Below are positions 14,759-40,955 of a DNA stretch of 40,955 nt, piece by piece. The number at the start of each line of letters is the position of its first letter. The stretch's first letter is position 1. The position numbers were made by a program, and so were the translations under genes. The stretch is from NCBI GenBank assembly GCA_007695015.1, contig REEN01000036.1, forward strand, positions 1-40,955, in the 5' to 3' direction. The notes under the pieces are model-generated. The model worked only from the letters and a program-made list of their open reading frames with translations, searched no databases and was not told the DNA's origin. This DNA comes from Marinilabiliales bacterium (GTDB lineage: Bacteria > Bacteroidota > Bacteroidia > Bacteroidales > PUMT01).

Positions 14759-14825
14759 TCAGTTATATATTATGAGGTTAATATTAAATATCAGGTTGCA
14801 GCTGATGCTTTTTCCTGAAACTGCT

Positions 14826-15716: not shown

Positions 15717-15762
15717 ATCTTTTGTTTTTCCTGTGTTACAAAAATACCGTGCCAATATCTCT

Positions 15763-18910: not shown

Positions 18911-18997
18911 TAATAAGTAAGTTGCTCCGGGATATGTTGTCCTGCTTTGAAAACGGGAACAAAAACTGAATACCAATTATCATATTCAATATTCAAC

Positions 18998-20062
18998 ATG
19001 AAGGAACTTAAACTGATGAAGGGGAATGAGGCAATAGCCGAAGCTGCGATCCGTGCGGGAGCCGACGCATACTTCGGATATCCGATCACCCCTCAGAGTG
19101 AGATACTCGAATATCTTATGGCCGAGAAACCACATGAGCGTACAGGCATGGTGGTACTGCAGGCTGAAAGCGAAGTGGCAGCCATCAATATGGTCTACGG
19201 AGGCGCTGCCTGCGGCAGAAAGGTGCTTACGTCCTCCTCGAGCCCCGGTATCAGCCTGAAACAGGAGGGGCTATCTTATATTGCAGGTTCGGAGCTTCCG
19301 TGCGTGGTAGTGAACGTGGTAAGGGGAGGACCCGGACTGGGTACTATTCAGCCTGCGCAGTCCGATTATTTCCAGGCGGTCAAGGGTGGCGGACACGGTG
19401 ATTACAGGTTGATAGTGCTTGCCCCGCAGTCGGTTCAGGAGATGGCCGATTTTGTGGACCTTGGATTCGAGCTTGCATTTAAATACCGCAACCCGGTAAT
19501 GATACTGACCGACGGTGCACTGGGACAGATGATGGAGAAGGTATGGCTGCAGGAACAGAAGCCGAGGATGAAAACCTTTCCTGAATGGGCCACTACCGGA
19601 AAGACACCTGACAGGGAAAGAAACGTAATAACGTCGCTGGACCTTGATTCGGCCGAACAGGAGAAATTCAACCTGAAACTTCAGGAGAAATACAGGAAGC
19701 TGGAGGCGGAAGAGGTGCGGTTTGAGCATACCGAAACAGAAGATGCGGAATACCTGCTCGTTGCTTACGGCACAAGCGCCAGGATCTGCCAGAAATCAGT
19801 CCGCCTCGCCCGGGAGAAGGGTATCAAAGCCGGACTGCTGCGGCCTGTTACTCTGTTCCCCTTTCCAAAAAAACCTCTTATGGAGCTTGCGGGAAAGGTA
19901 AAGGGTATACTGACCGTTGAGATGAGTACCGGCCAGATGGTTGAGGATGTGAGGCTGGCTGTTGAGTGCAAAGTTCAGGTGGAGCACTACGGCCGTATGG
20001 GTGGAATAATACCGACTCCGGAAGAGATAGTTGACGCCCTCGGTAATAACTTCTTAAAATAG
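18998..20062 (+). CDS. vorB: 2-oxoacid:ferredoxin oxidoreductase alpha subunit (VorB/KorA-like)
   Basis: A 354-residue pyruvate:ferredoxin oxidoreductase domain I/II protein. The N-terminus MKGNEAIAEAAIRAGADAYF, then GYPITPQSEILEYL, is the family signature, and LQAESEVAAINMVYGGA contains the conserved Glu region. With the beta subunit it decarboxylates 2-oxoacids oxidatively to acyl-CoA, reducing ferredoxin. I chose the ATG at 18998, where family homology begins. The 3-methyl-2-oxobutanoate (valine-derived) name is the usual label for this subfamily, but 2-oxoglutarate or other 2-oxoacids cannot be excluded. The beta gene starts seven bases after the stop. Confidence 0.87.
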   Translation: MKELKLMKGNEAIAEAAIRAGADAYFGYPITPQSEILEYLMAEKPHERTGMVVLQAESEVAAINMVYGGAACGRKVLTSSSSPGISLKQEGLSYIAGSELPCVVVNVVRGGPGLGTIQPAQSDYFQAVKGGGHGDYRLIVLAPQSVQEMADFVDLGFELAFKYRNPVMILTDGALGQMMEKVWLQEQKPRMKTFPEWATTGKTPDRERNVITSLDLDSAEQEKFNLKLQEKYRKLEAEEVRFEHTETEDAEYLLVAYGTSARICQKSVRLAREKGIKAGLLRPVTLFPFPKKPLMELAGKVKGILTVEMSTGQMVEDVRLAVECKVQVEHYGRMGGIIPTPEEIVDALGNNFLK

Positions 20063-20069
20063 GATCATT

Positions 20070-20864
20070 ATGGCAGAAAATACCGGCATAAAAGATATAG
20101 TAAAGGATGAAAACCTTGTCTACCAAAAGACAAGTGTTTTGACTGACAACGTGATGCACTACTGTCCGGGATGCGGGCATGGAACTGCACACAGGCTGAT
20201 TGCCGAAGTAATCGAAGATATGGATATACAGTCCGATACCTTAGGTGTTACACCGGTTGGATGTGCTGTGTTGATGTACAACTATCTTGACATTGACATG
20301 CAGGAAGCGGCACACGGCAGGGCGCCGGCAGTAGCCACTGCCATTAAAAGGCTGATGCCCGATAAATACGTGTTCACTTACCAGGGAGACGGCGACCTTG
20401 CGGCTATAGGTACTGCAGAGACAATACATGCTTGCAACAGGGGTGAGAATATTGCAATATTCTTTATCAACAACGGGATATACGGGATGACCGGGGGACA
20501 GATGGCGCCTACCACCCTTTCGGGCATGAAATCCTCTACCTCTCCCTATGGCAGGGATGTGCAGATGATGGGCAACCCGATGAAGATGACCGAGCTGGTT
20601 GCACAACTTCCCGGCACCTGGTATGTGACGAGACAGACCGTTCACACCCCGGCAAGTGTGAGGAAAGCAAAAAAGGCCATTAGGCAGGCATTCGAGAACC
20701 AGAAGCTGAAGAAAGGGCTGTCGCTGGTTGAGATAGTGTCGAACTGCAATTCGGGCTGGAAAATGTCACCCGTAGAAGCAAACAAATGGATGGCCGAGAA
20801 TATGTTCCCTTTCTATCCTCCCGGCGATATCAAGCTGGAAGGCAAACTGGTTGTTAAAGAATAA
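20070..20864 (+). CDS. 2-oxoacid:ferredoxin oxidoreductase beta (TPP) subunit
   Basis: A 264-residue TPP-binding subunit. HYCPGCGHGTAHRL supplies the CxxC cluster ligands near the N-terminus. GDGDLAAIGTAETIH with FFINNGIYGMTGGQ is the GDG-X25-30-N motif for thiamine diphosphate and Mg2+. It carries out the decarboxylation with the alpha subunit. It is translationally close to both neighbours and its stop lies ten bases before the chosen start of the gamma gene. Intact and of normal length. Confidence 0.9.
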   Translation: MAENTGIKDIVKDENLVYQKTSVLTDNVMHYCPGCGHGTAHRLIAEVIEDMDIQSDTLGVTPVGCAVLMYNYLDIDMQEAAHGRAPAVATAIKRLMPDKYVFTYQGDGDLAAIGTAETIHACNRGENIAIFFINNGIYGMTGGQMAPTTLSGMKSSTSPYGRDVQMMGNPMKMTELVAQLPGTWYVTRQTVHTPASVRKAKKAIRQAFENQKLKKGLSLVEIVSNCNSGWKMSPVEANKWMAENMFPFYPPGDIKLEGKLVVKE

Positions 20865-20874
20865 TACATCAGAT

Positions 20875-21435
20875 ATGACAGAAGAGATCATCATAGCAGG
20901 ATTCGGGGGACAGGGTGTGCTTTCAATGGGCAAGATCCTGGCCTATTCGGGTATCATGGAAGATCAGGAGGTAAGCTGGATGCCTTCATACGGGCCCGAG
21001 ATGCGCGGAGGTACCGCAAATGTGACGGTCATCATGAGCGACGAACCCATCAGCTCGCCAATAATCAACAGGTTTGACACCGCCATAATCCTTAACCAGC
21101 AGTCGATGGACAAGTTTGAGGATTCGGTCAAGCCCGGGGGACTGCTCCTGTATGACGGAAACGGCATAACAAGGCATCCCGAAAGGAAGGATATAAAGGT
21201 ATACCGTGTTGATGCGGCCGAAGAGGCTGCCAGGATGGAGTCGGCCAGAATATTCAATATGATAGTGTTGGGCGGCTTTCTCAAGATAAAGCCACTGGTG
21301 AAGATAGAGAATGTGAGAAAGGGAATTGCCGAATCGCTTCCCGAGAGGCATCACGGACTGATACCCCTGAATGAAAAGGCGGTTTTACGGGGGATGGAGA
21401 TAGTAAAAAAGGTGTTTGAACCCGCCCCGGAATAG
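20875..21435 (+). CDS. 2-oxoacid:ferredoxin oxidoreductase gamma subunit
   Basis: A 186-residue pyruvate/ketoisovalerate oxidoreductase gamma-domain protein. It begins MTEEIIIAGFGGQGVLSMGK and has SWMPSYGPEMRGGTANVTV, both family hallmarks. It completes the delta-alpha-beta-gamma set. The start at 20875 is preferred over the in-frame codon at 20851, which overlaps the beta gene and adds eight residues not typical of the family. The operon ends here, before a strong hairpin. Confidence 0.9.
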   Translation: MTEEIIIAGFGGQGVLSMGKILAYSGIMEDQEVSWMPSYGPEMRGGTANVTVIMSDEPISSPIINRFDTAIILNQQSMDKFEDSVKPGGLLLYDGNGITRHPERKDIKVYRVDAAEEAARMESARIFNMIVLGGFLKIKPLVKIENVRKGIAESLPERHHGLIPLNEKAVLRGMEIVKKVFEPAPE

Positions 21436-27395: not shown

Positions 27396-27427
27396 CAAAA
27401 ATAGCTATTCTTTAAGATTATGTCAAA
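27396..27427 (-). promoter_or_regulatory. Near-perfect Bacteroidota promoter for the M3 peptidase
   Basis: Read on the minus strand, TTTG, 20 bases, then TATTTTTG: both elements match the consensus TTTG-N19-21-TAnnTTTG exactly. Transcription would begin roughly 30 bases before the GTG start at 27361, which is strong support for that start over the ATG at 27526. Confidence 0.72.
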
Positions 27428-27569: not shown

Positions 27570-28916
27570 CTATTGTCTTCCCAGGTGCCTGTCGCAGAAG
27601 TCCATCCACGCCTCCCATTCAATTGCCGTCATGTCATGGCGGCCGGGACGTATAAAAAACCCAAGCCTTGAACTTACCAGTTGGTTCTGGGGAGGCATCA
27701 GGTTTGTTTCAATACCTTCAACACCCAGAAGTTCATAAACAGGTGTTGCCGCTACAAGCATATTGAACTGCCCTCCCGGGTCGGCCCACTCATCGTCAGT
27801 TGCATTGGTAAGCAGTAAAGGCCTTGGAGCTGCCAGGGCAATGAGCGAATGCTGGTCAAAGGGCAGCCTTTCAACATGATTGTTGAACTCCTTGAATGCA
27901 TCATTGAACCAGTGCGGGAAGACGGTGTTGATCCTTTCAACGCTCTCGCCCACGTTGAACCTGTTTGGAGAGGTGCCGCCCGACCCGGCCTGCGAGGGTA
28001 TTATAATATCAATCCTTTCATCAAAAGCGCCTGCCACCATGGCCGCCTTTCCCAGCCTGGAGTGCCCGATAACAATAATTCCGTCATTGTCAAGATCAGG
28101 ATCCTCAACAATATAATCCACCCCCCGCTTGATGCCCCATGCCCATGCAGACACAACACCCCATTCGTGGGGCCCCGGACGTTCCTGCTGTTCGGTGAAA
28201 TAACCCCTGTGTACTCCCTCTGTAAAGCCGCCGTCATAATCGGGAGATATTTCGCCGGCATATATGGTGGCTACGGCATATCCACGGTCAATTACCATCT
28301 CGTAGGGCCATCTCCATTCCCTTATACCGCGCTGGTCGTCATGGGCCCTGTTGTCGGTAGCACCTGTCCAGCTGTTGTTGACCCATGCCCCGGTAAGAGG
28401 TATTTCGGGAAAATCAGCTGTGGTATGATTTCCTGGGAAATTTAGCCCGAAAAAAACAGGGACCGGCCCCTCCCTGTCGTTTGGAATAACGATCATCATG
28501 GAAACCTCGGGAGTGCCCGGGGGACCAAACCTGAGAGTGACAAGCTTGAGGGTAGCCTTTCCGTCGAATTTCGTGTTGTCTGTATAATCGATGGTATAAG
28601 AAAAATTTTCAGGCGGGGCAGGGGAGTAACCATACATGTAGTGCTTAAACAGTGAAATAAGCTCTGGTCTGCGTTTCTCCTTCCAGTCCCCGACCGAAGT
28701 CACCGGCGTTCCGTCAAACATCACCAGCGGGTCGGGCAGCTGTCTGATAACGGGCAGTCCGGAGACCGGCGGCCAGCTTTCAGGCAGGGAACCGCAAGGC
28801 AAAGAGCCGGTTCCTGAGTCATGTTGCAACCCGTTTGATTTCAGATAACTGCACGACAGAAAAAGGATGCATGTTATAATTGTAATTCTCATTCTCATTC
28901 TTATTTGCATTCTCAT
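27570..28916 (-). CDS. CE15-type glucuronoyl methylesterase lipoprotein
   Basis: About 448 residues from the ATG at 28916, first of several clustered Met codons. The N-terminus is a lipoprotein signal with lipobox FLSC (Cys22). The alpha/beta-hydrolase fold carries GHSRLGKAAM with Ser286 as nucleophile, and His427 in RPGRHDMTAIEWEAWMDF. These are CE15 features: enzymes that hydrolyse esters between lignin and 4-O-methylglucuronate on xylan. The position usually filled by the canonical acid reads PSQAGSGG (Ala instead of Glu); acidic residues in ATDDEWADPGG could replace it, as reported for some bacterial members. It fits the GH10 xylanase and other wall-degrading enzymes on this segment. Surface or periplasmic location is inferred. 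Confidence 0.82.
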   Translation of the reverse strand: MRMQIRMRMRITIITCILFLSCSYLKSNGLQHDSGTGSLPCGSLPESWPPVSGLPVIRQLPDPLVMFDGTPVTSVGDWKEKRRPELISLFKHYMYGYSPAPPENFSYTIDYTDNTKFDGKATLKLVTLRFGPPGTPEVSMMIVIPNDREGPVPVFFGLNFPGNHTTADFPEIPLTGAWVNNSWTGATDNRAHDDQRGIREWRWPYEMVIDRGYAVATIYAGEISPDYDGGFTEGVHRGYFTEQQERPGPHEWGVVSAWAWGIKRGVDYIVEDPDLDNDGIIVIGHSRLGKAAMVAGAFDERIDIIIPSQAGSGGTSPNRFNVGESVERINTVFPHWFNDAFKEFNNHVERLPFDQHSLIALAAPRPLLLTNATDDEWADPGGQFNMLVAATPVYELLGVEGIETNLMPPQNQLVSSRLGFFIRPGRHDMTAIEWEAWMDFCDRHLGRQ

Positions 28917-28955
28917 GGGTTTTGGTTTACGGACAGAAGTCCAGGTCGAATATAG

Positions 28956-28988
28956 CAAATTTAACGGATATGACCGGGATACCTGAAA
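28956..28988 (-). promoter_or_regulatory. Candidate promoter for the CE15 esterase
   Basis: On the minus strand TTTC, 21 bases, then TAAATTTG, an exact -7 match with one mismatch in the -33 box. It lies about 40 bases before the start at 28916 and partly covers the longer open-frame start at 28958, which supports the inner start. Confidence 0.5.
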
Positions 28989-29074: not shown

Positions 29075-29965
29075 ATGAACAGAAGAGAATTTACCAGAAA
29101 GTCAGCCCTGGCATCGGTACTGCTCTGCGCCATGCCATTGCCGGGCATTGCCTCACCGGGATCATCCCGCGCTATAAGGAAAGGTATTATGTGGGCAACG
29201 ATTGGGGTGGGGGAGACGGTTGCCGCAAAGTTCGAAGCCGTAAAAGAGGCAGGGTTCGAAGGGGTGGAGGTCATGAGCCACATGGACAGGGATGAGGTTC
29301 TTGCCGCAGCTGGGCGGACCGGACTAAAGATACCAAGCGTGTGCAACGCCTTGCACTGGGAGTATCCTCTGTCTCATCCCGACCCCGCCGTACGTGAAAA
29401 AGGCGTTGATGCGCTCGTGCATTCACTTGAAGATGCAGCAGCATTTGGCGCGGATACCGTTTTACTCGTTCCCGGCCGGGTAAGCGCCGAAGTCACTTAC
29501 GACCAGTGCTGGGAAAGGTCTGTTCCCGCAATCAGGAAGGCCCTGCCCGTTGCCGAAAGACTGAGGGTAAACATTGCTATCGAGAATGTCTGGAACAATT
29601 TCCTGCTGAGTCCCCTCGAGGCAGCCAGGTACGTTGATCAGTTCGGGAGTCCCTTTGTGAGGTTTTACCTTGACTGCGGCAATATCCTCCTTTATGGCTG
29701 GCCCGAACAATGGATAAGGATACTTGGCAGCAGGATTGCCAAGGTCCATATCAAGGAATTCAGCATGCACCTGGCCAACACAGAGGGCAGGGGAGCCGGC
29801 TTCAGGGCCCCGCTGCTCGAGGGAGATGTCAACTGGCCCGGGGTCATGAAGGCGCTGGATGAAATTGGTTACACCGGGTGGGCCATTACCGAACAGTCAG
29901 GCGGCGACACTCCCGAAGGCCTTGCCGACCTGGTCTCCAGGCTTGAGAAGATTCTCAAAAGCTGA
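29075..29965 (+). CDS. Tat-signal sugar phosphate isomerase/epimerase-like TIM barrel
   Basis: A 296-residue AP-endonuclease-2-type TIM barrel. The N-terminus MNRREFTRKSALASVLL, then a hydrophobic core ending near GIASPGS, resembles a twin-arginine signal. Metal ligands expected of the family are present: Glu170 (IAIENVW), Asp200 (YLDCGN), His225 (KVHIKEF) and Glu273 (AITEQSG). Such proteins isomerise or epimerise sugars or 3-keto-sugars, often with Gfo/Idh/MocA partners. Divergent from the CE15 gene and single on its strand. The natural substrate is unknown; 'phosphate' in the family name should not be taken literally for an exported protein. Confidence 0.85.
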   Translation: MNRREFTRKSALASVLLCAMPLPGIASPGSSRAIRKGIMWATIGVGETVAAKFEAVKEAGFEGVEVMSHMDRDEVLAAAGRTGLKIPSVCNALHWEYPLSHPDPAVREKGVDALVHSLEDAAAFGADTVLLVPGRVSAEVTYDQCWERSVPAIRKALPVAERLRVNIAIENVWNNFLLSPLEAARYVDQFGSPFVRFYLDCGNILLYGWPEQWIRILGSRIAKVHIKEFSMHLANTEGRGAGFRAPLLEGDVNWPGVMKALDEIGYTGWAITEQSGGDTPEGLADLVSRLEKILKS

Positions 29966-30143: not shown

Positions 30144-30884
30144 ATGAAAACAAAAGAAAGCCTTTCGTTTTTTGTGCTTGCCCTTTTTGGGGCCGCTATA
30201 CTGGTTTTTAGCGGTTGCAAGAAAGATGACGATGATCTTAACGGAGATCCTGACTCAGTGAAAGACTATGATGGCAATGTCTACAAAACTGTAACCATTG
30301 GCAGCCAGGTATGGTTTGCTGAAAACTTGCGTACTACAAAGTACCGTAACGGCGATGCTATTCCGACAGGGCATACCAAAGCAGGATGGGCCGGTTTAGC
30401 CACAGGGGCCTACGCCGTTTACCCACATTCAGAAATTGATGGTTTTACATCCGGCGCGGAGGTGCTCCAGGGCTATGGCGCCCTCTACAACTGGCATGCA
30501 GTAAAAACAGGCAAGCTATGCCCTGCAGGCTGGCGCATACCAACCGACGGGGATTGGACAACCCTTACTGACCACATTGGCGGCTCAGGCATTGCGGGAG
30601 GCAAACTTAAAAGTACCCGCACCACACCCGTTGCTCACCCCCGCTGGGAAAGCCCCAACCTGAACGCAACCGATGAGTACGAATTCTCTGCCATTCCCGC
30701 GGGGCTTATTTCTAATGATGGAGAACCCCTGTTTAACGGGTATGCCGGTTACTGGTGGTCCTCAACTGAACAGGAGACAATTGGTGCCTGGTACAGGGCA
30801 ATGATCTGGGAGAATGGTGAAGTGATCAGACCGGTAGTAGATAAGAAATTCGGCTTCTCCGTTCGCTGCATCAAGGAAAACTGA
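30144..30884 (+). CDS. FISUMP-domain surface lipoprotein
   Basis: A 246-residue protein with a lipoprotein signal ending LVFSGC (Cys25), followed by KKDDDD. Acidic residues right after the Cys resemble the lipoprotein export signal that directs Bacteroidota lipoproteins to the cell surface. The body is a Fibrobacter succinogenes major paralogous domain: DYDGNVYKTVTIGSQVWFAE, GALYNWHAV, CPAGWRIPTDGDW and the C-terminal GFSVRCIKEN. Function of the domain is not established; it is abundant in fibre-degrading bacteria, and an adhesion role is a guess. Convergent with the next gene. Upstream 178 bp hold only weak promoter-like boxes. Confidence 0.85.
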   Translation: MKTKESLSFFVLALFGAAILVFSGCKKDDDDLNGDPDSVKDYDGNVYKTVTIGSQVWFAENLRTTKYRNGDAIPTGHTKAGWAGLATGAYAVYPHSEIDGFTSGAEVLQGYGALYNWHAVKTGKLCPAGWRIPTDGDWTTLTDHIGGSGIAGGKLKSTRTTPVAHPRWESPNLNATDEYEFSAIPAGLISNDGEPLFNGYAGYWWSSTEQETIGAWYRAMIWENGEVIRPVVDKKFGFSVRCIKEN

Positions 30885-30919: not shown

Positions 30920-31849
30920 TTACATAAACACTTTCCTTGCAAACTCAATATTGGCTTTTGTATCCTCTTCGAATCTGTTTTCCCGTCCGCTTGTCTCCAG
31001 TATCAGCCATTTGTCATAACCAATATCGCGCAGGGCAGCTGCGCATGCTTCCAGGTCAACCTCTCCCGTTTCATCAAAAAGGTTCTGGTTCCACCTGGTG
31101 TTTTTGAGATGTATCTCGCACATGCGGTGATTGCCGATCATCCTGATCTCTCCGGGCACGTCATATCCGTTGTTCCATGGATTTGCGGTATCGTAGTATA
31201 TCTGTACCATGGAGGAGCCTATCTCATCTATGATCTGAAGATTCTGGCGGGCAGTAAGGGTGTTCTCAAGTCCGATGACTACTCCAAGGTCTTCGGCACG
31301 GGGAACAATCTGTTTGATGACGGCAATTACCCTCTCAACATCCTTTTCCTTCCACTTGTATTCAGGGAATTTTCCTGTCGAGATATTTATGTAACTGCCT
31401 GATTCGTCTCTTTCGAGGAGGTCGCCGTTGCCAAAGAAGGCAGTCAGAATATTTGTTGAACCCAGCGCTGCTGCAGCCTCGAGGGCGTCTACCACGAATA
31501 TGGCGGACTGCGGTTCGGTGGCAAGGGGTATCTCATTGAGGATGCTGCCTGCTGCCACGGAGGGAAATACGATGCCATGCTGTTTGCCCAGATCAAGGTA
31601 CTTTTCCCTCACGGCTTTTTCACGCAACGGCATATTGCCGGGCGATGTTCCAACGCTTACCTGGATCGCTTCCAGTCCGACCCCCGCCGCCCTTGGAATA
31701 TAGGAAGGATCGGCTGACCGGCCCAGGTTCCAGTCACATATCCCGATGCCGGCAGGCCCGGGATTGCTGCATGAAGCAAGAACGGTTGAAGGAAGTCCTG
31801 CAATAACCGCAGCTGCAATGCTTTTTTGAATAAATGATCTTCTGTCCAT
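30920..31849 (-). CDS. Tat lipoprotein sugar isomerase/epimerase-like TIM barrel
   Basis: A 309-residue protein related in fold to the one at 29075-29965. MDRRSFIQKS is a twin-arginine motif and STVLASC supplies a lipobox with Cys27, so it may be a Tat-exported lipoprotein. Metal ligands: Glu195 (VIGLENT), Asp220 (YYDTAN), His247 (CEIHLKN) and Glu285 (LILETSG). It starts 74 bases after the GH74 gene on the same strand and may be co-transcribed with it. The likely role is rearrangement of a sugar or keto-sugar in the periplasm; substrate unknown. Confidence 0.85.
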   Translation of the reverse strand: MDRRSFIQKSIAAAVIAGLPSTVLASCSNPGPAGIGICDWNLGRSADPSYIPRAAGVGLEAIQVSVGTSPGNMPLREKAVREKYLDLGKQHGIVFPSVAAGSILNEIPLATEPQSAIFVVDALEAAAALGSTNILTAFFGNGDLLERDESGSYINISTGKFPEYKWKEKDVERVIAVIKQIVPRAEDLGVVIGLENTLTARQNLQIIDEIGSSMVQIYYDTANPWNNGYDVPGEIRMIGNHRMCEIHLKNTRWNQNLFDETGEVDLEACAAALRDIGYDKWLILETSGRENRFEEDTKANIEFARKVFM

Positions 31850-31923: not shown

Positions 31924-34380
31924 TCAGTTAATCACAAGAAATCTGGCACTGCCTGCCGGATATCCCATGTTCAGGACCCGTAATATATAGATTCCTGATT
32001 GTAGATTTGCAGTGTCGAGAATCTCCGATGATTTACCATATATATTGTGTGTTTGCACCATTTTTCCGCTATTGTCAAATAGATGGATGCTGCCTGTTTC
32101 AATTGGTTTGGCAAACTCAATAATCAGTAATGATCCATATGACGGGTTGGGAAAGATCCTGAGTTCCGGCAATTGTGATTGGTTTGTAAATGATATGGAT
32201 GTGGGAATGTCTGCTCTGCCATACATTATTCCGCGTCCTCCTGTTGCACAATATACAAGCCCTGCTGTGCGGAGGTCTCCGCTAATATCCCTTACCCTGC
32301 CTGCAGGCATCTCTCCCAGTGAAATATTTGTCCACGTTTTCCCGTAATCAGCCGAAAGGTATATTGCTTCAGTACCTTCAATCACTGCAGCTATATATAT
32401 TGCAGGATCTTCCGAGTGTGGCATGGGTTTTCCAAAACCTATGCCTCCTACTGATGATACTCCTGGAACTTCTGACCATGAAGAGCCATAGTCTGTAGAG
32501 TGAAAAAGCTTACCCCTGTTGGTGTGGAAAAACAGGTGTCCCTCCCTGAATGGTACGGCCTTCAGCTTGCACTGATAATGCTGTGGCAGGCCGGAGTAGA
32601 CTTTTGAGAAAGTTTCGCCGCCATCATCACTGCGGTAAAGTGCTCCTCCGTCATTTTGAAGATAATAGTAGAAGTAGTCACCATTCACCCTGTCTGATGC
32701 AAGAACCAGGCTTTGCGCCCAGTGGTGGGTGGCACTGTTGCGGATTGCCGGGATCCCTGATGAAGGGTGCCAGGATTCTCCTTTATCATTTGTATAATGC
32801 ATCTGCACAATAGGCACTGAGGAAGCATCATTATGAGGAGCCCATACCCATCTGCTTTCATCTGTGGCGGAGATAGCGATATTGCCATTATTGAAATCAG
32901 CCGGTATTGACGGAAAAGGCCTCCAGCCTTTTCCGTTGTTGGTGGTATAGAGATGACGTTCTTCGGCTACATTATGCATCTGGCTGCCAACTATCACAGA
33001 TACCGACGGATTGCCGACACAATAATCCATACCGGTCCCTATACCGAACTGATCGCCGAAGATTGATTTTGATGGCACCTGATCGACATTGTCGTGAGCG
33101 AAGGCAATCTTGTCCATTACCAGCGAGAAGACTGCCTTGCCATCGGTTACCGGCGGCACATGTACCTGTCCGGCAACCAGCTCCTCGAGGTTGTCCATCC
33201 GGGTTACCCATTGAGGGTTTGCGGCTTGAATATTACTTGTAACATAAACGCCGAATCCATTCGGTTGCCACACCTTGTCTGAATTAGCTTTGTCAAACAT
33301 TATGTGGGAGGTATAGGTCCACGGCACATAGGTGGGATACCATGACGGTTCGCTAAGATTGCTGAAGCGCACCGGCTTCCAGCTCTCACCACCGTTCAGA
33401 CTGAGGTGGATGCCTTTCTCATATCCGGGCTTCCACTGAATTGCAATAACTTTGTCAGGGTCATCGAAAGCAGTGTCAATACCACTGAACCCTCTCCCGT
33501 TATTATCTGCGGGTGTTACATCAATGAGCCTTCCCCCTGAATATCTGTAAATCCTTCCATCTTTGCCGTCATGTCCCCATTCGGATTCCTGGTCGGTATA
33601 GGTTACAAACAGGGTCCCGTTTGTTGAGACTGTTCCCGAAACCGGTCTGTGAGTCAGGGAATCTGGCCCGCCCGGCAATATTTTCCAGTTTTCCCCCGCG
33701 TCGGTTGTCATATAAATGCCTTTACCCTGTACGCCAGCATAGATTATTTGAGAGTTAAGGGTTCCGTTTCCGGACCTCTTGTCTATTGCAGTAAAAATAT
33801 TTCCTCCCCCCGATCCGGGAGGGACCTCTCCTGTATCGATCTTTTGCCATGTTTCTCCTTGGTCCGGACTTCTCCACAGGCCATCCTGCTCGGAGGCGTA
33901 AAAAAGAACTTTGCCGTTATTATTTGGGTCGACCACGAGTCTCTTCCCTCCCCAGCGAAAATAAGCGGAATTCGGGTTCACATGTATATCAGGAAAACCC
34001 TCAAGCTTTTCCCATGTATCACCCCTGTCTGATGATTTAAGAAGCAGGGGGCCAGTTGTTACTGAATATAGCAGACCGGGGTCAGATTCGCTCATTGCAT
34101 CACCTGAAACACCTGGAGCATTAAAGGCATCCATGAGTGGTATCCATCTGTTGTTTTCAGGATCCCAGCGGTAATTTCCACCAACATCGGTTCTGGCAAC
34201 CACATAACCGGGGTCAGCAGGATGGGCATTGATGCCAGTGACAAACCCCATTCCCTGGAATTTTACATTATCCCAGGTAAATGATTGGGCATGGCCTGTC
34301 AGAGGGCAGATAAGAAGGATGAAAAATGTAAGTAACAAAAACCGTCTCTCAATATTTTTCGCATGAGTCATATTAGTCAT
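31924..34380 (-). CDS. GH74 xyloglucanase with T9SS sorting domain
   Basis: An 818-residue secreted enzyme. After a signal peptide (cleavage near GHAQ-SF, residue 32) comes a two-part seven-bladed propeller with BNR/sortilin-type repeats such as SSDRGDTWEKLEG and SPDQGETWQKID. Catalytic aspartates fit Asp65 in ARTDVGGNYRWDP and Asp443 in SIFGDQFGIGTG, as in GH74. The last 75 or so residues, beginning LPELRIFPNPSYGS and ending GIYILRVL then FLVIN, are a type A T9SS sorting domain, so it should reach the cell surface or medium. Endo-xyloglucanase action is the family norm. Two ATGs (34380, 34371) are possible starts. Divergent from the GH5 gene. Confidence 0.87.
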   Translation of the reverse strand: MTNMTHAKNIERRFLLLTFFILLICPLTGHAQSFTWDNVKFQGMGFVTGINAHPADPGYVVARTDVGGNYRWDPENNRWIPLMDAFNAPGVSGDAMSESDPGLLYSVTTGPLLLKSSDRGDTWEKLEGFPDIHVNPNSAYFRWGGKRLVVDPNNNGKVLFYASEQDGLWRSPDQGETWQKIDTGEVPPGSGGGNIFTAIDKRSGNGTLNSQIIYAGVQGKGIYMTTDAGENWKILPGGPDSLTHRPVSGTVSTNGTLFVTYTDQESEWGHDGKDGRIYRYSGGRLIDVTPADNNGRGFSGIDTAFDDPDKVIAIQWKPGYEKGIHLSLNGGESWKPVRFSNLSEPSWYPTYVPWTYTSHIMFDKANSDKVWQPNGFGVYVTSNIQAANPQWVTRMDNLEELVAGQVHVPPVTDGKAVFSLVMDKIAFAHDNVDQVPSKSIFGDQFGIGTGMDYCVGNPSVSVIVGSQMHNVAEERHLYTTNNGKGWRPFPSIPADFNNGNIAISATDESRWVWAPHNDASSVPIVQMHYTNDKGESWHPSSGIPAIRNSATHHWAQSLVLASDRVNGDYFYYYLQNDGGALYRSDDGGETFSKVYSGLPQHYQCKLKAVPFREGHLFFHTNRGKLFHSTDYGSSWSEVPGVSSVGGIGFGKPMPHSEDPAIYIAAVIEGTEAIYLSADYGKTWTNISLGEMPAGRVRDISGDLRTAGLVYCATGGRGIMYGRADIPTSISFTNQSQLPELRIFPNPSYGSLLIIEFAKPIETGSIHLFDNSGKMVQTHNIYGKSSEILDTANLQSGIYILRVLNMGYPAGSARFLVIN

Positions 34381-34402
34381 GTTTTGACAGGTATTGGATT
34401 TT

Positions 34403-34434
34403 TTTGCTTTATTCAGCTAAAATAACTATTTATG
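34403..34434 (+). promoter_or_regulatory. Candidate promoter for the GH5-GH9 genes
   Basis: TTTG at 34403-34406, 20 bases, then TATTTATG at 34427-34434. One mismatch in the -7 box. It lies 36 bases before the GH5 start, in the short divergent gap shared with the GH74 gene. Confidence 0.48.
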
Positions 34435-34470
34435 CCTCTTTAATAATACCCTGGATTGAAAAGTTTTGAA

Positions 34471-36060
34471 ATGAAGGTGACAGCCCTTTTGGTTTTTCTG
34501 TTTCTCATTACTCCTCTAACAGCACAGAGAATTTACGTTGACGGTAATATTTTTAAGGTGGACGGGAAGCAGATCTGGATAAACGGAACCAACACTCCAT
34601 GGAACAGATGGAATGAATTCGGCGGCAATTTTGATGAGGAGTTCTGGAGGGAGGAGTTTGAAAGACTTACTGTATATGGTGTCAATTCCACCAGGGTCTG
34701 GTTGTCATGTGATGCAGACGGACATATCCGGATAACTGACAGCGGATACGTTACAGGTCCTGCAGACAAATTCTGGACCGATCTTGACAAGCTGATGGAG
34801 ATTGCTGAGACTTACCAGATATATATTATGGCAACCCCCATCTCATTTGATCATACCCGTCAGGGAAGAGACAGAGATGCCTGGAGAAATATGTATGCAA
34901 GTGCGGACAACCGTCAATCATTTGTTGAAAATTATATTAAAGATTTGGTTATCAGGTATAATGACAACCCGTGGTTCTTTGCAGTTGATGTTGCAAATGA
35001 GATTGAATGGGTTTGGGAAAATCACGGGGTTGATCGCGATGATGTTATTGATCTTATCGCCAGGGTAGCAAACGCTGTACATGATAACAGTGATATTCTC
35101 GTGACCCAGGGAATGGGAGCGGGGCCGAAATACTGTTCTTCTGTTTTTCCTGACGGAAACCTGGTAAGCGACGAGTCACTAAGTTCAAAACAACCAGGAG
35201 CTTATCTTGATTTTTACAAATTGCACTATTATGAATGGCAGAACCAATGGTTTTCGAATCCGTTTGACAGATCCCCCGGGGATTGGGGAATAGATGATAA
35301 GCCTTGTGTTATTGGCGAATGCAGAGCAAATGGCACGAATGCCGGTTATACCTATCGGGAAGCTGTATTCCGGGCGTTTGATCTTGGATGGCAGGGGATT
35401 ATGCCATGGACCTCTAATCCAATCGGCCATCTAGGATCAATTTACGATCACGGCCCGGGAAGCCTTGCTTTTACCCGTGCCTACCCTGAACTGGTTTATC
35501 CTGTAGATGGGCCTCAGACAGTTGCGGTTACAGGAGTGCAGATAATACCGCCGGAGGATACAATGATCGTTGGTACCACTCTCCAGTTAACTGTTTCTTT
35601 TCTCCCGGAAAATGCATCCAATACCTATGTTTCATGGAACAGTAGAGATGAAACAATTGCAACGGTTAATTCCGGTGGACTGGTAGCCGCTTTAACCCCG
35701 GGAAACGCATCAATTGGCATTGAAACTCATGATGGAGGTTATAAGGCTAATGCCGAAATCACTGTAATTGATGTTGCAACAGTTATACCGGGGTACTCAA
35801 CCGGTGATGCAAACGGACTTAACCGGGAGGATATTTTAATAGCACCTAATCCTGCAGGAAATTTTGTTACAATAAAAACTCCTGTCGATGAATCAGGTTT
35901 TCGAGTGGCAATAGTTGATATGAAAGGGACACTTATCAGGAAGGGAACTCTTAATGCAGGGGAAAACCTGCTTTGCCTTGATAATTTTGAACCCGGAATA
36001 TATTTTATTAGGATCTCCAATAAGCGGGATTCTTATACTACGAAGCTTTTGATCAAATAA
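34471..36060 (+). CDS. GH5-like endoglycanase with Big2 and T9SS domains
   Basis: A 529-residue secreted glycoside hydrolase. The signal peptide MKVTALLVFLFLITPLTAQ supports the ATG at 34471 over the TTG at 34456. The (beta/alpha)8 domain has Glu177 in DVANEIEW as likely acid/base and Glu283 in CVIGECRANG as likely nucleophile, as in clan GH-A. A bacterial Ig-like (Big2) domain follows (VAVTGVQIIPPEDTMIVGTT), then a type A T9SS sorting domain starting ILIAPNPAGNFV. The target may be mannan or beta-glucan; family number and substrate need a search. Two hand-counted 60-base stretches are about 40% GC, lower than one 53% stretch in the GH9 gene. GH9 follows after 41 bases. Confidence 0.82.
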   Translation: MKVTALLVFLFLITPLTAQRIYVDGNIFKVDGKQIWINGTNTPWNRWNEFGGNFDEEFWREEFERLTVYGVNSTRVWLSCDADGHIRITDSGYVTGPADKFWTDLDKLMEIAETYQIYIMATPISFDHTRQGRDRDAWRNMYASADNRQSFVENYIKDLVIRYNDNPWFFAVDVANEIEWVWENHGVDRDDVIDLIARVANAVHDNSDILVTQGMGAGPKYCSSVFPDGNLVSDESLSSKQPGAYLDFYKLHYYEWQNQWFSNPFDRSPGDWGIDDKPCVIGECRANGTNAGYTYREAVFRAFDLGWQGIMPWTSNPIGHLGSIYDHGPGSLAFTRAYPELVYPVDGPQTVAVTGVQIIPPEDTMIVGTTLQLTVSFLPENASNTYVSWNSRDETIATVNSGGLVAALTPGNASIGIETHDGGYKANAEITVIDVATVIPGYSTGDANGLNREDILIAPNPAGNFVTIKTPVDESGFRVAIVDMKGTLIRKGTLNAGENLLCLDNFEPGIYFIRISNKRDSYTTKLLIK

Positions 36061-36101
36061 ATCTGAATAATATAAGATAAACTTTCAAACATTGATACAC
36101 C

Positions 36102-39035
36102 ATGAAAAACATTAGACTTAAGGTAAGGACATTGATAATTCTACTTTACCTCTTTATTCCTGTCATGACTGCAGGCCAGTCTGATTCGCCATTCATCATT
36201 GTCGATCAGTACGGATATCTGCCTGATGCGCCCAAGATTGCCGTAATTAAAGATCCCCAGGTGGGTTTCGATTCTGATAACTCTTTTACCCCCGGTTCTC
36301 TTTATGCAGTCGTCAACAACGCAACGGGTGATACGGTTTTTACCGGTACACCTGTATCATGGAGGGACGGGGGGACAAACGCTTCGTCGGGCGACAGGGT
36401 GTGGCACTTTGATTTTTCAGAGGTTTCGGCTACAGGCACCTATTTTGTGGCAGATGTTGAAAAGAATATCCGTTCCTACAGGTTCAATATATCACCCTCG
36501 GTTTATAACGAGGTGCTGCGGCAGGCCATGCGAACTTTCTTTTACCAGCGCTCTGGATTTGCAAAGGAAGAGCCTTACGCCGAGCCCGGGTGGGTTGATG
36601 GGGCAAGCCACGTCGGACCGGGACAGGATTTGAATGCCCGCCTGTTCAATGCAACAAACGATCCGGAAACCGAAAGGGATGTAAGCGGGGGATGGTATGA
36701 TGCAGGCGATTACAATAAATATACACGGTGGAACGCAAGCTATATCGTGTTAATGATGCAGGCCTATCTGGAAAGGCCGGAGGTGTGGACAGATGATTTT
36801 AATATCCCTGAGTCAGGCAATGGGATACCCGACCTGCTTGATGAAGCGAAATGGGGCCTTGATCACCTGCTCCGGATGCAGGAAGAGGATGGCGGGGTGC
36901 TGAGCGTTGTGGGGGCCGCTCATGCCAGTCCCCCCTCTGCCGCAACTAACCCCAGCCGATACGGTCCGCCCAGTACTTCCGCCACATCGGCGGTCGCAGG
37001 TGCTTTTGCCATAGCATCTGGAGTTTACCGCTCAATAGGCATGGAAGATTATGCTGATCTGCTTGAAGAAAGCGCAATTGCGGCATGGGACTGGGCTGAG
37101 GCCAATCCAAATGTGATATTCAGAAATAATGACCCGGCTTTCGGCTCACAGGGACTGGCTGCAGGTCAGCAGGAGACCGATGATTATGGCAGATTGATGG
37201 GAAAGCTGAGGGCGGCATGTTTTCTGTTCGAGTTGACCGGCGACGAAAAGTACCGTGAGTTTTTTGACAATAATTATCGAAAGGTCAATATGTTCGCATG
37301 GAATTTTGCTTTCCCTTTTCAGTCCGAAAACCAGGATTTCCTGATTCATTATACAACGATTGATGGGGCAACTCCTGATGTTGTAAACGATATAAAAAAG
37401 GTATACGGCAGCGCTATGATGAACGGCAGTGAAAACTGGCCGGCAATTACCGGTAAAAAGGATCCATATATGGCACATATAGCGGACTATACATGGGGGA
37501 GTAACGGTGTTAAGAGCCGGCAGGGCATGATGTTTTACAGCCTCTTCCAGTACGGTTTCGACCTGCTTGACTCTGCGCGTATTGCCGATGCAGCCATAGG
37601 TTACATTAACTATACGCATGGCGTCAATCCGTTAAACTTCAATTACCTGTCAAATATGTTCCGCTTTGGCGCGAATAACGGGGTGAGGGAGTTCTATCAC
37701 ACCTGGTTCAGGGATGGCAGCAGAACATGGGGCAGGGCGGGCAGCTCCACTTACGGGCCGGCGCCAGGCTTCCTTACCGGAGGCCCCAATCCCGGCTACG
37801 ACTGGGATGACTGCTGCCCTACAGGTTGCGGATCCACTTCAAACAACCAGCTATGCTATTCAGAGTCTATCTATCCGCCGAAAGGCCAGCCCGACCAGAA
37901 ATCGTACAAGGATTTCAATGCTTCATGGCCGCTGAACTCATGGTCGGTTACCGAGAACAGCCTTGGTTACCAGCTTCCATACATACGCCTTCTTTCCAAG
38001 TTCGTCAACCCCGAATATGATTGCAACGGCGACCTGAACGGTGAGGCGTTCTATGATGCCTGCGGCATCTGTTCAGGCGGGAATACAGGCCGCGAACCTT
38101 CAGATGATCCCGGCAACTGCGCGGTACACCGGCTGGAGGTTATTGCAGAGAATGGATCGGTTACTGTTCCCGCACCTTCGGACGGAGAACTTCATAATCA
38201 TGGCCGGATAATGAGGGTAACCGCCACTGCCGACAGCGGGTATGTCTTCGCAGGGTGGACCGGAGATGCCAGTGGAACTGACAATCCCCTGACAATAGTT
38301 ATGAACGTTGACAAGGAGATCATTGCGAATTTTGCCGAAACTTTTACGCTTACGGTAAACAACGGCAGCGGCAGCGGTGATTACGAGGAAGGGGCCCAGG
38401 TTGAGATTGAAGCTGATACACCTCCTGAGGGGCAGATCTTTGATGTGTGGACAGATGATGTTGAACATGTTGCTGATGTAGGCAGCAGCAGCACCACAGT
38501 CACCATGCCTGCAGAAGATATAACCGTTACGGCTGTTTATGCTGCCAAACTGTACAACCTGACTGTAAATCATGGCAGTGGCAGCGGTGATTACGAGGAA
38601 GGGACACAGGTTGAGATTGAAGCTGATACACCTCCTGAGGGGCAGATCTTTGATGTGTGGACCGGTGATGTTCAGACGGTGACTGATATTGACAGCAGTA
38701 TTACTACCATCATAATGCCGGCTGCCGATATTTCCGTTACGGCTACTTTCATGGATGATACCCTTAGCGTGGGGATCATATACCCGGGCACCGGCCAAAA
38801 GGAGGTTACACTCTATCCAAACCCTGCTGCAGGGGAGGTGAGGATCATTGCTCCGGGTTTTGACGCGGAGGCTGTTGTGAGTCTGTTTGACATAAACGGG
38901 GCCATCGTAAGGCAGGAGCTTCTGGGTTCCGGAGGTGAACTGCTGATCAATACTTCATCCCTGCCCGGGGGAAACTACCTGATACGGGTATCTTCAGGCA
39001 GTAAATCAGTGTATGCAAGGATGATCCTGCTTTAA
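36102..39035 (+). CDS. GH9 cellulase with Cys-rich linker, repeat modules and T9SS domain
   Basis: A 977-residue secreted endoglucanase. After the signal peptide comes an N-terminal Ig-like domain (about 28-125), typical of GH9 theme enzymes. The (alpha/alpha)6 catalytic domain has GGWYDAGDYNKYTRWN near 195-210 and Glu618 in SVTENSLGYQLPY as likely proton donor. A Cys-rich segment, DCNGDLNGEAFYDACGIC then SGGNTG, follows. Next are three InlB/Flg_new-like beta modules at about 675-890, the last two nearly identical. A T9SS sorting domain (VTLYPNPAAGEV) ends the protein. It should cut cellulose or mixed-linkage glucan outside the cell. Probably co-transcribed with the GH5 gene 41 bases upstream. 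Confidence 0.92.
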   Translation: MKNIRLKVRTLIILLYLFIPVMTAGQSDSPFIIVDQYGYLPDAPKIAVIKDPQVGFDSDNSFTPGSLYAVVNNATGDTVFTGTPVSWRDGGTNASSGDRVWHFDFSEVSATGTYFVADVEKNIRSYRFNISPSVYNEVLRQAMRTFFYQRSGFAKEEPYAEPGWVDGASHVGPGQDLNARLFNATNDPETERDVSGGWYDAGDYNKYTRWNASYIVLMMQAYLERPEVWTDDFNIPESGNGIPDLLDEAKWGLDHLLRMQEEDGGVLSVVGAAHASPPSAATNPSRYGPPSTSATSAVAGAFAIASGVYRSIGMEDYADLLEESAIAAWDWAEANPNVIFRNNDPAFGSQGLAAGQQETDDYGRLMGKLRAACFLFELTGDEKYREFFDNNYRKVNMFAWNFAFPFQSENQDFLIHYTTIDGATPDVVNDIKKVYGSAMMNGSENWPAITGKKDPYMAHIADYTWGSNGVKSRQGMMFYSLFQYGFDLLDSARIADAAIGYINYTHGVNPLNFNYLSNMFRFGANNGVREFYHTWFRDGSRTWGRAGSSTYGPAPGFLTGGPNPGYDWDDCCPTGCGSTSNNQLCYSESIYPPKGQPDQKSYKDFNASWPLNSWSVTENSLGYQLPYIRLLSKFVNPEYDCNGDLNGEAFYDACGICSGGNTGREPSDDPGNCAVHRLEVIAENGSVTVPAPSDGELHNHGRIMRVTATADSGYVFAGWTGDASGTDNPLTIVMNVDKEIIANFAETFTLTVNNGSGSGDYEEGAQVEIEADTPPEGQIFDVWTDDVEHVADVGSSSTTVTMPAEDITVTAVYAAKLYNLTVNHGSGSGDYEEGTQVEIEADTPPEGQIFDVWTGDVQTVTDIDSSITTIIMPAADISVTATFMDDTLSVGIIYPGTGQKEVTLYPNPAAGEVRIIAPGFDAEAVVSLFDINGAIVRQELLGSGGELLINTSSLPGGNYLIRVSSGSKSVYARMILL
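38371..38662 (+). repeat. Near-identical 82-bp direct repeat in the GH9 gene
   Basis: Positions 38371-38452 and 38581-38662 match at 80 of 82 bases, 210 bases apart, in frame. They encode SGDYEEGAQVEIEADTPPEG and its copy with T in place of A, within two InlB-like modules. The high identity against diverged flanks suggests a recent duplication or gene conversion. Confidence 0.85.
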
Positions 39036-39091
39036 CAGGCAACTTCGCATGTTACAATAAATTTTAAACAGATCACCCGGCATCCATTACC

Positions 39092-39104
39092 GGTAAAATT
39101 TACC
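39092..39104. promoter_or_regulatory. Short dyad upstream of the xylanase gene
   Basis: GGTAAA and TTTACC form a perfect inverted repeat around a single A, 31 bases before the GH10 start. It could be an operator or chance in an A/T-rich 100-base gap. Confidence 0.2.
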
Positions 39105-39135
39105 TGAATGCAGGCTGGTCAAAAACATAATACAG

Positions 39136-40578
39136 ATGAAAACCGTAATTTGCCTTTTTATCAGCATCATGTTACCGTTTTGCACAGCTCTTTTTGATAC
39201 AGGGATATCTTACGGTCAGCCCACCAGTGAAAAGATCAGGGAGATGGAATCCCTTATCGGGTCGGGGAGCTCCGGGGAGTTGCTGTCAGTTAAACAGGAG
39301 ATAGAAGAGGATTACCTGTCTGTGGCCAGGCATAATATCGAACAATACCGAAAAAGTGGTGCGGTACTGGTGTTTACCGGCGCGAACGGGCAGCCGCTTG
39401 AGAACATTGAGGTGAAAATTGACCAGGTTTCGCAGGACTTCCTTTTTGGGGCACTTCTTTTCGAGATTGCCGGCCACGCTTCAGCCCGGCCATATAAAGA
39501 GGATGAATTCAAAGATAGATTCAAAGCCCTTTTCAATCTTGGGATACTGCCATTCTACTGGGCAAGCTACGAAAGGACAGCCGGTAACCCCCTGTGGCAG
39601 CGAAACCAGTCCGCTCTGGAATGGGCGCTTGAGAACGGCATTACATTAAAGGGACATCCGCTCGGCTGGACAAGTCCGGCCGGCACGCCGCAGTGGTTGC
39701 TGGGGCTTCCGCCGGAAACGGCAACAGACCTTTACAAGGCAAGAATCCAAAACAATGTTATCGGTTACAAGGGGAAGATCGACATATGGGATGTTGTGAA
39801 TGAGCCGGTAAATACCGTTCCCTGGGATGTTGCACTGGCAGACACCGACAATGACAACAGTCTGAGATATAACGTGACCGGATATACAACTGACGATTTT
39901 GCCGGCTGGGTTGAGCAATCCTACAGGTGGGCCTATGATGCAAATCCTGATGGCGATTATATATTAAATGAGTATTTCACACTGGCAATACCGGAGATAC
40001 GGGACCGGTTTTATGATCTGATCAGTGAACTGGTAAGAAGGAATACACCGATAAGCGGAATAGGTATCCAGGGGCATGAACCGAGGGAGATGTGGTTCTC
40101 ACCTGTTGAGATGTACAAAACCTTTGATCTTTACAAGCAGTTTGGCCTTCCTCTTCATATTACCGAATTCATTCCGCAGTCATCCGGAAAAGATATCACA
40201 GGCTGGCGTGAGGGGGTGTGGACAGAAGAGACCCAGGCGGAATTTGCAGAGCAGTTCTACACCCTGGCATTCGGGCATCCTTCGATTGCTTCAATAACAT
40301 GGTGGGCATTTACAGACCGCAATGTCTGGCTCGAGGGCGGGGGATTGCTGGATGCGGAATACAACCCCAAACCTGTATATGACAGGCTGAAAAAGCTTAT
40401 TAAAGATGAGTGGATGACAAGGAATATTCACCTGGTAACTGATCCTGGCGGCAGTATCTCCTTCAGGGGATTCTTCGGGAGATACGACGTGTCGGTCACC
40501 AAACCCGACGGCAGCACGGTAAAATTTGATGTACACCTTCAGGAAGGAGAGACCAACTACTGGCAGTTTACCTTATAA
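39136..40578 (+). CDS. GH10 endo-beta-1,4-xylanase
   Basis: A 480-residue enzyme with a signal peptide likely cleaved after YGQ. An N-terminal helical stretch and small beta module (VLVFTGANGQPLENIEVKID) precede the GH10 barrel. GHPLGWTSPAGTPQWLL matches the substrate-binding loop, Glu223 in IWDVVNEPV is the acid/base and Glu344 in HITEFIPQ the nucleophile. The C-terminal stretch ISFRGFFGRYDVSV is a small beta tail seen in some Bacteroidota GH10 enzymes. No T9SS sorting domain is visible, unlike GH74, GH5 and GH9, so it may stay periplasmic or be released by the general route. It acts on xylan and pairs naturally with the CE15 esterase. Convergent with the partial gene at the right edge. Confidence 0.9.
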   Translation: MKTVICLFISIMLPFCTALFDTGISYGQPTSEKIREMESLIGSGSSGELLSVKQEIEEDYLSVARHNIEQYRKSGAVLVFTGANGQPLENIEVKIDQVSQDFLFGALLFEIAGHASARPYKEDEFKDRFKALFNLGILPFYWASYERTAGNPLWQRNQSALEWALENGITLKGHPLGWTSPAGTPQWLLGLPPETATDLYKARIQNNVIGYKGKIDIWDVVNEPVNTVPWDVALADTDNDNSLRYNVTGYTTDDFAGWVEQSYRWAYDANPDGDYILNEYFTLAIPEIRDRFYDLISELVRRNTPISGIGIQGHEPREMWFSPVEMYKTFDLYKQFGLPLHITEFIPQSSGKDITGWREGVWTEETQAEFAEQFYTLAFGHPSIASITWWAFTDRNVWLEGGGLLDAEYNPKPVYDRLKKLIKDEWMTRNIHLVTDPGGSISFRGFFGRYDVSVTKPDGSTVKFDVHLQEGETNYWQFTL

Positions 40579-40653: not shown

Positions 40654-40955
40654 TCAGGCTCCAGGGGCAGTACCCGGCACCGGTGGTTCAGGCTTTATGT
40701 CGACAGGCCCCATGACATATTCACGCGGACCGAGACGCATGCCCGATTCCATCATTTCAGCCCATGTCACATCCCTGCCGGTATAGGCAGATTCTCGGCC
40801 CATGATGCCCACCAGGGTGGATGATGCAACATTCAGTGCTTCGTTTACCGGGTTGTTGGTCCTGATAGCGGTTACCAGGTTAATGATCTCCTGGTCGTAG
40901 GGGTTGACGGCCACCCTTGACATCTCCGAACCGGTGCCTTCAACGGGATAGTCAT
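40654..40955 (-). CDS. Gfo/Idh/MocA family oxidoreductase, C-terminal part (cut by window edge)
   Basis: Only the last hundred or so residues are inside the window; the frame stays open to the edge. The stretch NPYDQEIINLVTAIRTN, then NEALNVASSTLVGIMGRESA and YTGRDVTWAEMM, is typical of the C-terminal domain of exported Gfo/Idh/MocA proteins of Bacteroidota. The protein ends with a Pro-rich tail. Such enzymes oxidise or reduce sugars with NAD(P), and often sit near TIM-barrel isomerases like those at 29-32 kb. The N-terminus and cofactor motif lie outside. Confidence 0.82.
   Translation of the reverse strand, partial: DYPVEGTGSEMSRVAVNPYDQEIINLVTAIRTNNPVNEALNVASSTLVGIMGRESAYTGRDVTWAEMMESGMRLGPREYVMGPVDIKPEPPVPGTAPGA

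Follow-up and report, generated by a model that had tools for sequence, protein, structure and literature searches.

A cluster of T9SS-tagged glycoside hydrolases with predicted hemicellulose substrates and no SusC/SusD pair found adjoining it

Results

Gene content of the locus

The window analyzed here is an entire contig of 40,955 nucleotides (REEN01000036.1, hereafter C36) from the genome of a Marinilabiliales bacterium (3.42 Mb in 118 contigs, 98.5% complete). Four genes for glycoside hydrolases (GHs), namely GH74, GH5-like, GH9, and GH10, are intact open reading frames (ORFs) between positions 31924 and 40578, and the products of the first three carry a C-terminal sorting domain of the type IX secretion system (T9SS). 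The genes of the locus are as follows (coordinates, strand, description, and main evidence).

27570..28958, minus: carbohydrate esterase family 15 (CE15) glucuronoyl esterase, leader read by eye (PF22244, 4e-36; closest solved structure 6ehn, MZ0003, 7e-108)
29075..29965, plus: iso1, AP_endonuc_2 TIM-barrel protein with a twin-arginine-type leader (PF01261, 8e-47)
30144..30884, plus: FISUMP-domain lipoprotein (PF09603, 2e-39)
30920..31849, minus: iso2, AP_endonuc_2 TIM-barrel protein with a twin-arginine leader and lipobox (PF01261, 5e-28)
31924..34380, minus: GH74 xyloglucanase with a C-terminal T9SS type A sorting domain (phmmer matches to xyloglucanases, best 6p2m, 2e-74; PF18962 and TIGR04183)
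34456..36060, plus: GH5-like β-mannanase with Big_2 and T9SS type A sorting domains (3vup, 5e-17; 2c0h, 2e-13; PF18962)
36102..39035, plus: GH9 with a CelD_N Ig domain, InlB-type repeats, and a T9SS type A sorting domain (PF00759, 1e-50; PF18998; PF18962)
39136..40578, plus: GH10, xylanase-like, Sec-type leader by eye, no sorting domain (PF00331, 1e-36; 8b73 β-xylanase, 3e-50)
40654..40955, minus: C-terminal 99 codons and stop of a Gfo/Idh/MocA lipoprotein of the twin-arginine translocation (Tat) type, with the remainder on contig C58 (contig-end overlap)

The interval from CE15 to GH74 is thus occupied by iso1, the FISUMP lipoprotein, and iso2. Pfam searches were run on 26 window ORFs; the ORF list contained 74 entries of at least 100 residues, most of which overlap those 26.

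Sorting domains and secretion machinery

The PF18962 and TIGR04183 models matched over cut-off at the C termini of GH74, the GH5-like protein, and GH9, and gave no match in GH10 or CE15. Putative N-terminal Sec leaders of the tagged GHs were read by eye in the translations. In the whole genome, PF18962 had 28 matches at an E value of 0.001, 25 of them over cut-off, and three tagged proteins in a set of 25 window genes correspond to a hypergeometric P of roughly 0.0016, with the gene number of the genome taken as 2,900. SprA, PorU, PorP, GldK, GldL, GldM, and GldN were all found over their cut-offs, and PorP-GldK-GldL-GldM-GldN are consecutive on contig C60. The domain assignments support GH74, the GH5-like protein, and GH9 as predicted T9SS type A substrates. 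An earlier note, made from the sequence alone, had read type A sorting domains on GH74, GH5, and GH9, placed them together with GH10 and, further left, CE15, and proposed a genome check for sprA, porU, and gldKLMN. These readings hold, with its GH5 being the GH5-like protein, and the check found the machinery.

Enzyme family assignments

The similarity of GH74 to characterized xyloglucanases extends over the full length (6p2m over residues 31–722, plus others). The GH5-like protein gave no match to the Pfam GH5 model PF00150; its Pfam result consisted of Big_2, the sorting domain, and Apiosidase (PF13204), the last below its cut-off only. A PF00150-type GH5 identity was rejected, since the nearest solved relatives are the β-1,4-mannanases 3vup and 2c0h. 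A genuine PF00150 GH5 with a sorting domain is encoded on contig C23 of the same genome. Asn181-Glu182 and Glu288 of the GH5-like protein are invariant among six aligned sequences; the two glutamates are presumably the catalytic pair of this clan, and the protein is a putative member of GH5 mannanase subfamily 10. Its ORF has an in-frame ATG at 34471. GH9 was confirmed by PF00759 plus CelD_N, and its translation contains two near-identical tandem InlB-type repeats (38340–38770). The GH10 match to PF00331 begins at profile position 47, and the similarity of CE15 to solved CE15 esterases was confirmed. The set reads as directed at xyloglucan, mannan, xylan, and β-glucan rather than cellulose alone, as far as family assignments predict substrates. 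The term cellulases used in the earlier note is therefore too narrow: GH74, the mannanase-like GH5, GH10, CE15, and a GH2 with mannosidase domains on the right flank (see below) point to hemicelluloses. As a separate observation, one of the GH9-relative loci described below (L128, 10010–13465) encodes a two-catalytic-domain enzyme, in which GH9 is joined to a GH5 domain of the PF00150 type and a sorting domain.

SusC/SusD, regulators, and the right flank

No SusC, SusD, sensor, or sigma factor was found by Pfam in the 26 window ORFs, in agreement with the earlier note. Genome-wide, eight proteins pass the SusC cut-off and SusD has ten matches; C36 carries none of them. Because the window is the whole contig, the absence of SusC/SusD from it is partly an assembly limit. 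On the right side, the last 55 bases of the window are an exact overlap with the reverse-complemented end of contig C58 (112 kb), and joining the two contigs restores an uninterrupted Gfo/Idh/MocA protein of 448 residues with a twin-arginine leader and lipobox. The C58 part of this protein (366 residues) is 95% identical to an intact gene of a genome of the same genus (G004), where it follows GH10 on one contig. Beyond this gene, in the order of the window frame, C58 encodes a further AP_endonuc_2 protein, again with a Tat leader, then a TonB_C-domain protein, a permease of the major facilitator superfamily (MFS), the GH2 with mannosidase domains, and a PAS histidine kinase. The kinase that follows GH2 may be a regulator linked to the locus.

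On C58, SusD gave no match, and the SusC model hit just three weak fragments, all below cut-off and about 80 kb away. The gene-by-gene reading covered the nearest 40 kb. A SusC/SusD pair just beyond the right end is therefore excluded, provided that the C36–C58 join is correct. The inspection of the flanks proposed in the earlier note could thus be carried through on the right neighbor, where no pair was found, and the left side ends at the contig end.

Conservation in the genus

In G004 the gene order is MATE, M3 peptidase, CE15, iso1, iso2, hexokinase, and then GH9, GH10, and Gfo/Idh/MocA. The G004 locus spans two contigs, which overlap by 121 identical bases inside GH9. The orthologs of iso1 and iso2 are 91% and 90% identical, respectively. 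Since the order CE15-iso1-iso2-(hexokinase)-GH9-GH10-Gfo is kept, the neighborhood is inherited and is not an assembly accident. GH74, the GH5-like gene, and the FISUMP gene are not at the syntenic G004 locus, and nothing matching FISUMP lies between iso1 and iso2 there. The core common to both genomes is CE15, AP_endonuc_2, GH9, GH10, and Gfo/Idh/MocA; GH74 and GH5 look like additions here or losses elsewhere. GH9 at 68% identity or more was found in three (G003, G004, and G005) of 12 comparison genomes of the same genus, which are 74–95% complete. The GH5–GH9 adjacency is common to the window and G005. The G005 locus (L091, G005:C342, 55–5969) has the GH5-like gene followed by two tandem GH9 genes, and the GH5-like protein there has an extra Big_2-like stretch. 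The GH5-like gene of the window has a G+C fraction of 0.436, the lowest among the 25 window genes.

Sorting domains together with SusC/SusD

In the same genome, contig C73 encodes SusC-SusD and then a GH13 with a T9SS sorting domain (L106, 6378–15348), C56 encodes SusC-SusD, a sorting-domain protein, a hybrid two-component regulator, and GH97, and C46 encodes SusC-SusD plus a T9SS-tagged subtilase. Relatives of the window GH9 were also surveyed in the best 80 of 565 confirmed stretches, from which its own species was possibly left out. By record titles, these loci comprise 37 from Bacteroidota (18 Bacteroidales-type and 19 others) and 43 from elsewhere. The first GH9 ORF has a sorting domain, by our own model, in 31 of the 37 Bacteroidota loci. 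A SusC or SusD model hit occurs in 14 of the 37 and an adjacent SusC-SusD pair in five within the fetched flanks, counts that are lower bounds because the flanks often end at contig ends. Twelve loci gave a hit with the SusC model; those in L122 and L123, at the least, are weak or unusual, and the SusC of L135 is truncated and below the TIGR04056 cut-off. In L160, L194, and L142, SusC, SusD, and the tagged GH9 all share a strand. In each of these three loci, SusC is confirmed by TIGR04056 and the GH9 tail by PF18962; the SusD of L160 and L194 is confirmed by Pfam and that of L142 by our own model alone. Such same-strand runs occur in Tannerellaceae, Flexithrix, and Cyclobacteriaceae.

These neighborhoods, in the same genome and among the GH9 relatives, indicate that T9SS export and SusC/SusD import are combinable parts and not alternatives. 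The opposition of T9SS to SusC/SusD drawn in the earlier note was too strong in this respect.

Outside Bacteroidota, sorting-domain model hits were present somewhere in the locus, in GH9 or another gene, in six of the 43 loci (L189–L191 and L195–L197), which are by title three Fibrobacter, one Chitinispirillales, and two Fibrimonas-type.

Tat-type enzymes flanking the GH genes

Three AP_endonuc_2 genes and a single Gfo/Idh/MocA gene are spread over the two sides of the GH group. The structures of iso1 and iso2 were modeled from two-row alignments, and the models are weak (predicted local distance difference test scores of 66.7 and 53.7), and only the iso1 model was searched. Its Foldseek neighbors are mostly ketose 3-epimerases, with the 3-keto-D-glucoside 4-epimerase YcjR at rank 33. 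The iso1 model thus places the fold and leaves the reaction undefined. iso2 had no sequence match in the PDB at an E value of 0.001.

Both families are numerous in this genome, with 29 Gfo/Idh/MocA and 15 AP_endonuc_2 matches, and a Tat-like leader was recognized by a crude pattern in 19 of 27 Gfo proteins. A further pairing of this kind in the genome is a T9SS-tagged polysaccharide lyase family 14 (PL14) protein near two Tat-type Gfo/Idh/MocA genes (L116, G000:C95, 3052–10953). For the survey of GH9 loci, the Gfo model set held 29 sequences, from 28 of the 29 genome places (C26:16479 was not extracted) and two from relatives, and the AP_endonuc_2 set held 14 of 15 genome places and one from a relative. 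The expectation was the rate in this one genome, and the loci are cut by contig ends. Over the 37 Bacteroidota loci, eight such genes were found versus 7.0 expected, which is no enrichment, and seven within 5 kb versus 4.0 expected (P = 0.115). The 19 loci that are not Bacteroidales-type have none (4.1 expected). The 18 Bacteroidales-type loci, which are non-independent, have seven within 5 kb versus 1.8 expected (P = 0.0026); this excess comes mostly from one syntenic-looking group, in which the AP_endonuc_2 belongs to another subfamily and one is below the Pfam cut-off. A general link of the GH9 lineage to these genes is unsupported over the 37 loci and only suggestive in the 18.

Energy metabolism and other window genes

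The anaerobic lifestyle supposed in the earlier note is compatible with the gene content, which is no proof of it: COX1 has no match in the genome (cytochrome bd was not searched for), and subunits of a 2-oxoacid:ferredoxin oxidoreductase are encoded at 18947–21435. At 13583–16947, a pair of aldo/keto reductases encloses a DUF6599 protein; the reductases show Tat-like leaders that stay below the Pfam cut-off, and they match 4Fe-4S models weakly.

Discussion

Proposed function of the locus

Here, we propose that this is probably an outside-in locus for the degradation of xyloglucan, mannan, β-glucan, and glucuronoxylan, with no dedicated SusC/SusD pair found adjoining it. GH74, the mannanase-like GH5, and GH9 would leave the cytoplasm through Sec and then traverse the outer membrane through T9SS, whose sortase PorU is known to process substrate tails. 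The tagged GHs would then act at the cell surface or in the medium, and GH10, CE15, and the flanking GH2, which have leaders and no tag, may handle the fragments in the periplasm or as lipoproteins. The fragments would pass the outer membrane either through a SusC/SusD pair encoded elsewhere in the genome or through a general porin, and the adjoining MFS permease may bring small sugars inward. Periplasmic remodeling of the released sugars is the probable role of the Tat-type proteins, three AP_endonuc_2 and one Gfo/Idh/MocA. In this scheme the sorting domains and the machinery genes were observed directly; the leaders, read by eye, and the secretion and activity of the enzymes are predicted.

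Several facts weigh against this proposal. Close relatives of GH74 (64%) and the GH5-like protein (78% over residues 15–436) were found in only one of the 12 same-genus genomes, G005, and both genes are missing at the G004 locus, so that the four GHs do not form a constant set. The G005 versions of GH74 and of the leading GH9 in the tandem are without a sorting domain. The GH genes of the window lie on both strands and must therefore belong to several transcription units. A search for the Bacteroidetes −7/−33 promoter pattern gave one match in the window (27396–27427) versus 0.69 expected, which is no excess, and none at the GH genes. To the left of CE15, about 27 kb of genes without a glycan link in Pfam run to the contig end, and the flank beyond that end is unseen.

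A different division of labor would be a split polysaccharide utilization locus (PUL), in which the oligosaccharides released by the T9SS enzymes would be taken up by a SusC/SusD pair encoded far from them. The SusC and SusD complement of the genome provides candidates, the SusC/SusD loci on C73, C56, and C46 already adjoin T9SS-tagged proteins, three relatives (L160, L194, and L142) have a T9SS-tagged GH9 on the SusC/SusD strand, and the chitinase ChiA of Flavobacterium johnsoniae is described as a T9SS enzyme within a SusC/SusD locus (PMC5127042). No hemicellulose enzyme, however, was seen at the C56 GH97, C73 GH13, C46 subtilase, C43 glucoamylase-like, and C91 fasciclin loci, a weak negative from eight scanned proteins. 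We regard a split PUL as possible, if unlikely. The grouping could also be a chance pile-up of GH genes that arrived by horizontal transfer next to housekeeping genes, with no joint function. The low G+C fraction of the GH5-like gene and the absence of GH74 and GH5 from the syntenic G004 place would fit such an origin, but the GH9-GH10-Gfo and CE15-iso1-iso2 orders are kept in G004, the GH5–GH9 adjacency recurs in G005, and the predicted substrates are complementary. We regard coincidence as very improbable.

The flanking Tat-type genes raise the idea of an oxidative route, in which the Gfo/Idh/MocA protein would oxidize C-3 of glycosides and the AP_endonuc_2 proteins would then split the resulting 3-keto sugars or add water to them, taking the place of hydrolysis and of a specific importer. 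The position of these four genes on both flanks of the GHs, the presence of YcjR among the structural neighbors of the weak iso1 model, and an Agrobacterium tumefaciens operon that performs such chemistry, with the hydratase on preliminary evidence (PMC10628242), are consistent with it. On the other hand, both families are common in the genome and Tat-like leaders are frequent in Gfo proteins, the 37 Bacteroidota GH9 loci show no enrichment and 19 of them hold none, and the excess in the other 18 is mostly one group with another AP_endonuc_2 subfamily. We consider this route doubtful. Its combination with the tagged enzymes into one SusC/SusD-free system is quite unlikely; in it, T9SS endo-hydrolases would feed a periplasmic C-3 oxidation–elimination by the Tat-type proteins, and monosaccharides would enter via the MFS permease, so that no glycan-specific outer-membrane importer would act after the first step.

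Comparison with known systems

The locus proposed here for outside-in degradation is of the same kind as the cellulase cluster of 'Candidatus Paraporphyromonas polyenzymogenes', its closest known system. That cluster comprises four GH5_2 cellulases together with GH3, GH94, and an outer-membrane β-barrel candidate, and the genome is reportedly without archetypal PULs (PMC5831590). The likeness is that, of four clustered endo-glycanases, three carry T9SS tags and one is a lipoprotein, that no SusC/SusD pair is named in the cluster there, and that a sugar symporter of the inner membrane and an enzyme completing the breakdown in the periplasm accompany them. Our locus differs in its set of GH74, GH5-like, GH9, GH10, and CE15, in the MFS permease, GH2, and Tat-type enzymes, and in belonging to a genome with SusC/SusD loci.

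Cytophaga hutchinsonii and Sporocytophaga also link GH5 and GH9 cellulases to T9SS, and disruption of a SusC/SusD-like pair in C. hutchinsonii gave no cellulose phenotype (PMC6247017). These are aerobic soil cellulose specialists, and no CE15/GH74/Tat-enzyme cluster was found described in the portion of that source used here. The chitin utilization locus of F. johnsoniae similarly combines a T9SS-secreted key enzyme with an inner-membrane transporter, but it has two SusC/SusD pairs and a two-component system (PMC5127042). The β-elimination operon of A. tumefaciens encodes an oxidoreductase, two sugar-isomerase-like proteins (one or both of them TIM barrels), and a Gfo enzyme, and its combination of the isomerase-like pair with a Gfo oxidoreductase resembles the set found here. 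The substrates studied in that case were plant natural-product glycosides, and the word polysaccharide is absent from that report (PMC10628242). What sets our locus apart from its closest known system is that Tat-type Gfo/Idh/MocA and AP_endonuc_2 proteins accompany the GHs, and with them, possibly, oxidative (3-keto) cleavage.

If the Tat-type enzymes were to follow the 3-keto route, fiber hydrolysis would be tied to oxidative deglycosylation. The locus adds a hemicellulose-directed case to the T9SS-linked degradation loci outside the SusC/SusD model. T9SS tags and SusC/SusD occur together or apart within one genome and among the relatives of one GH9, which speaks against dividing the degraders of this phylum into a 'PUL' and a 'T9SS' class.

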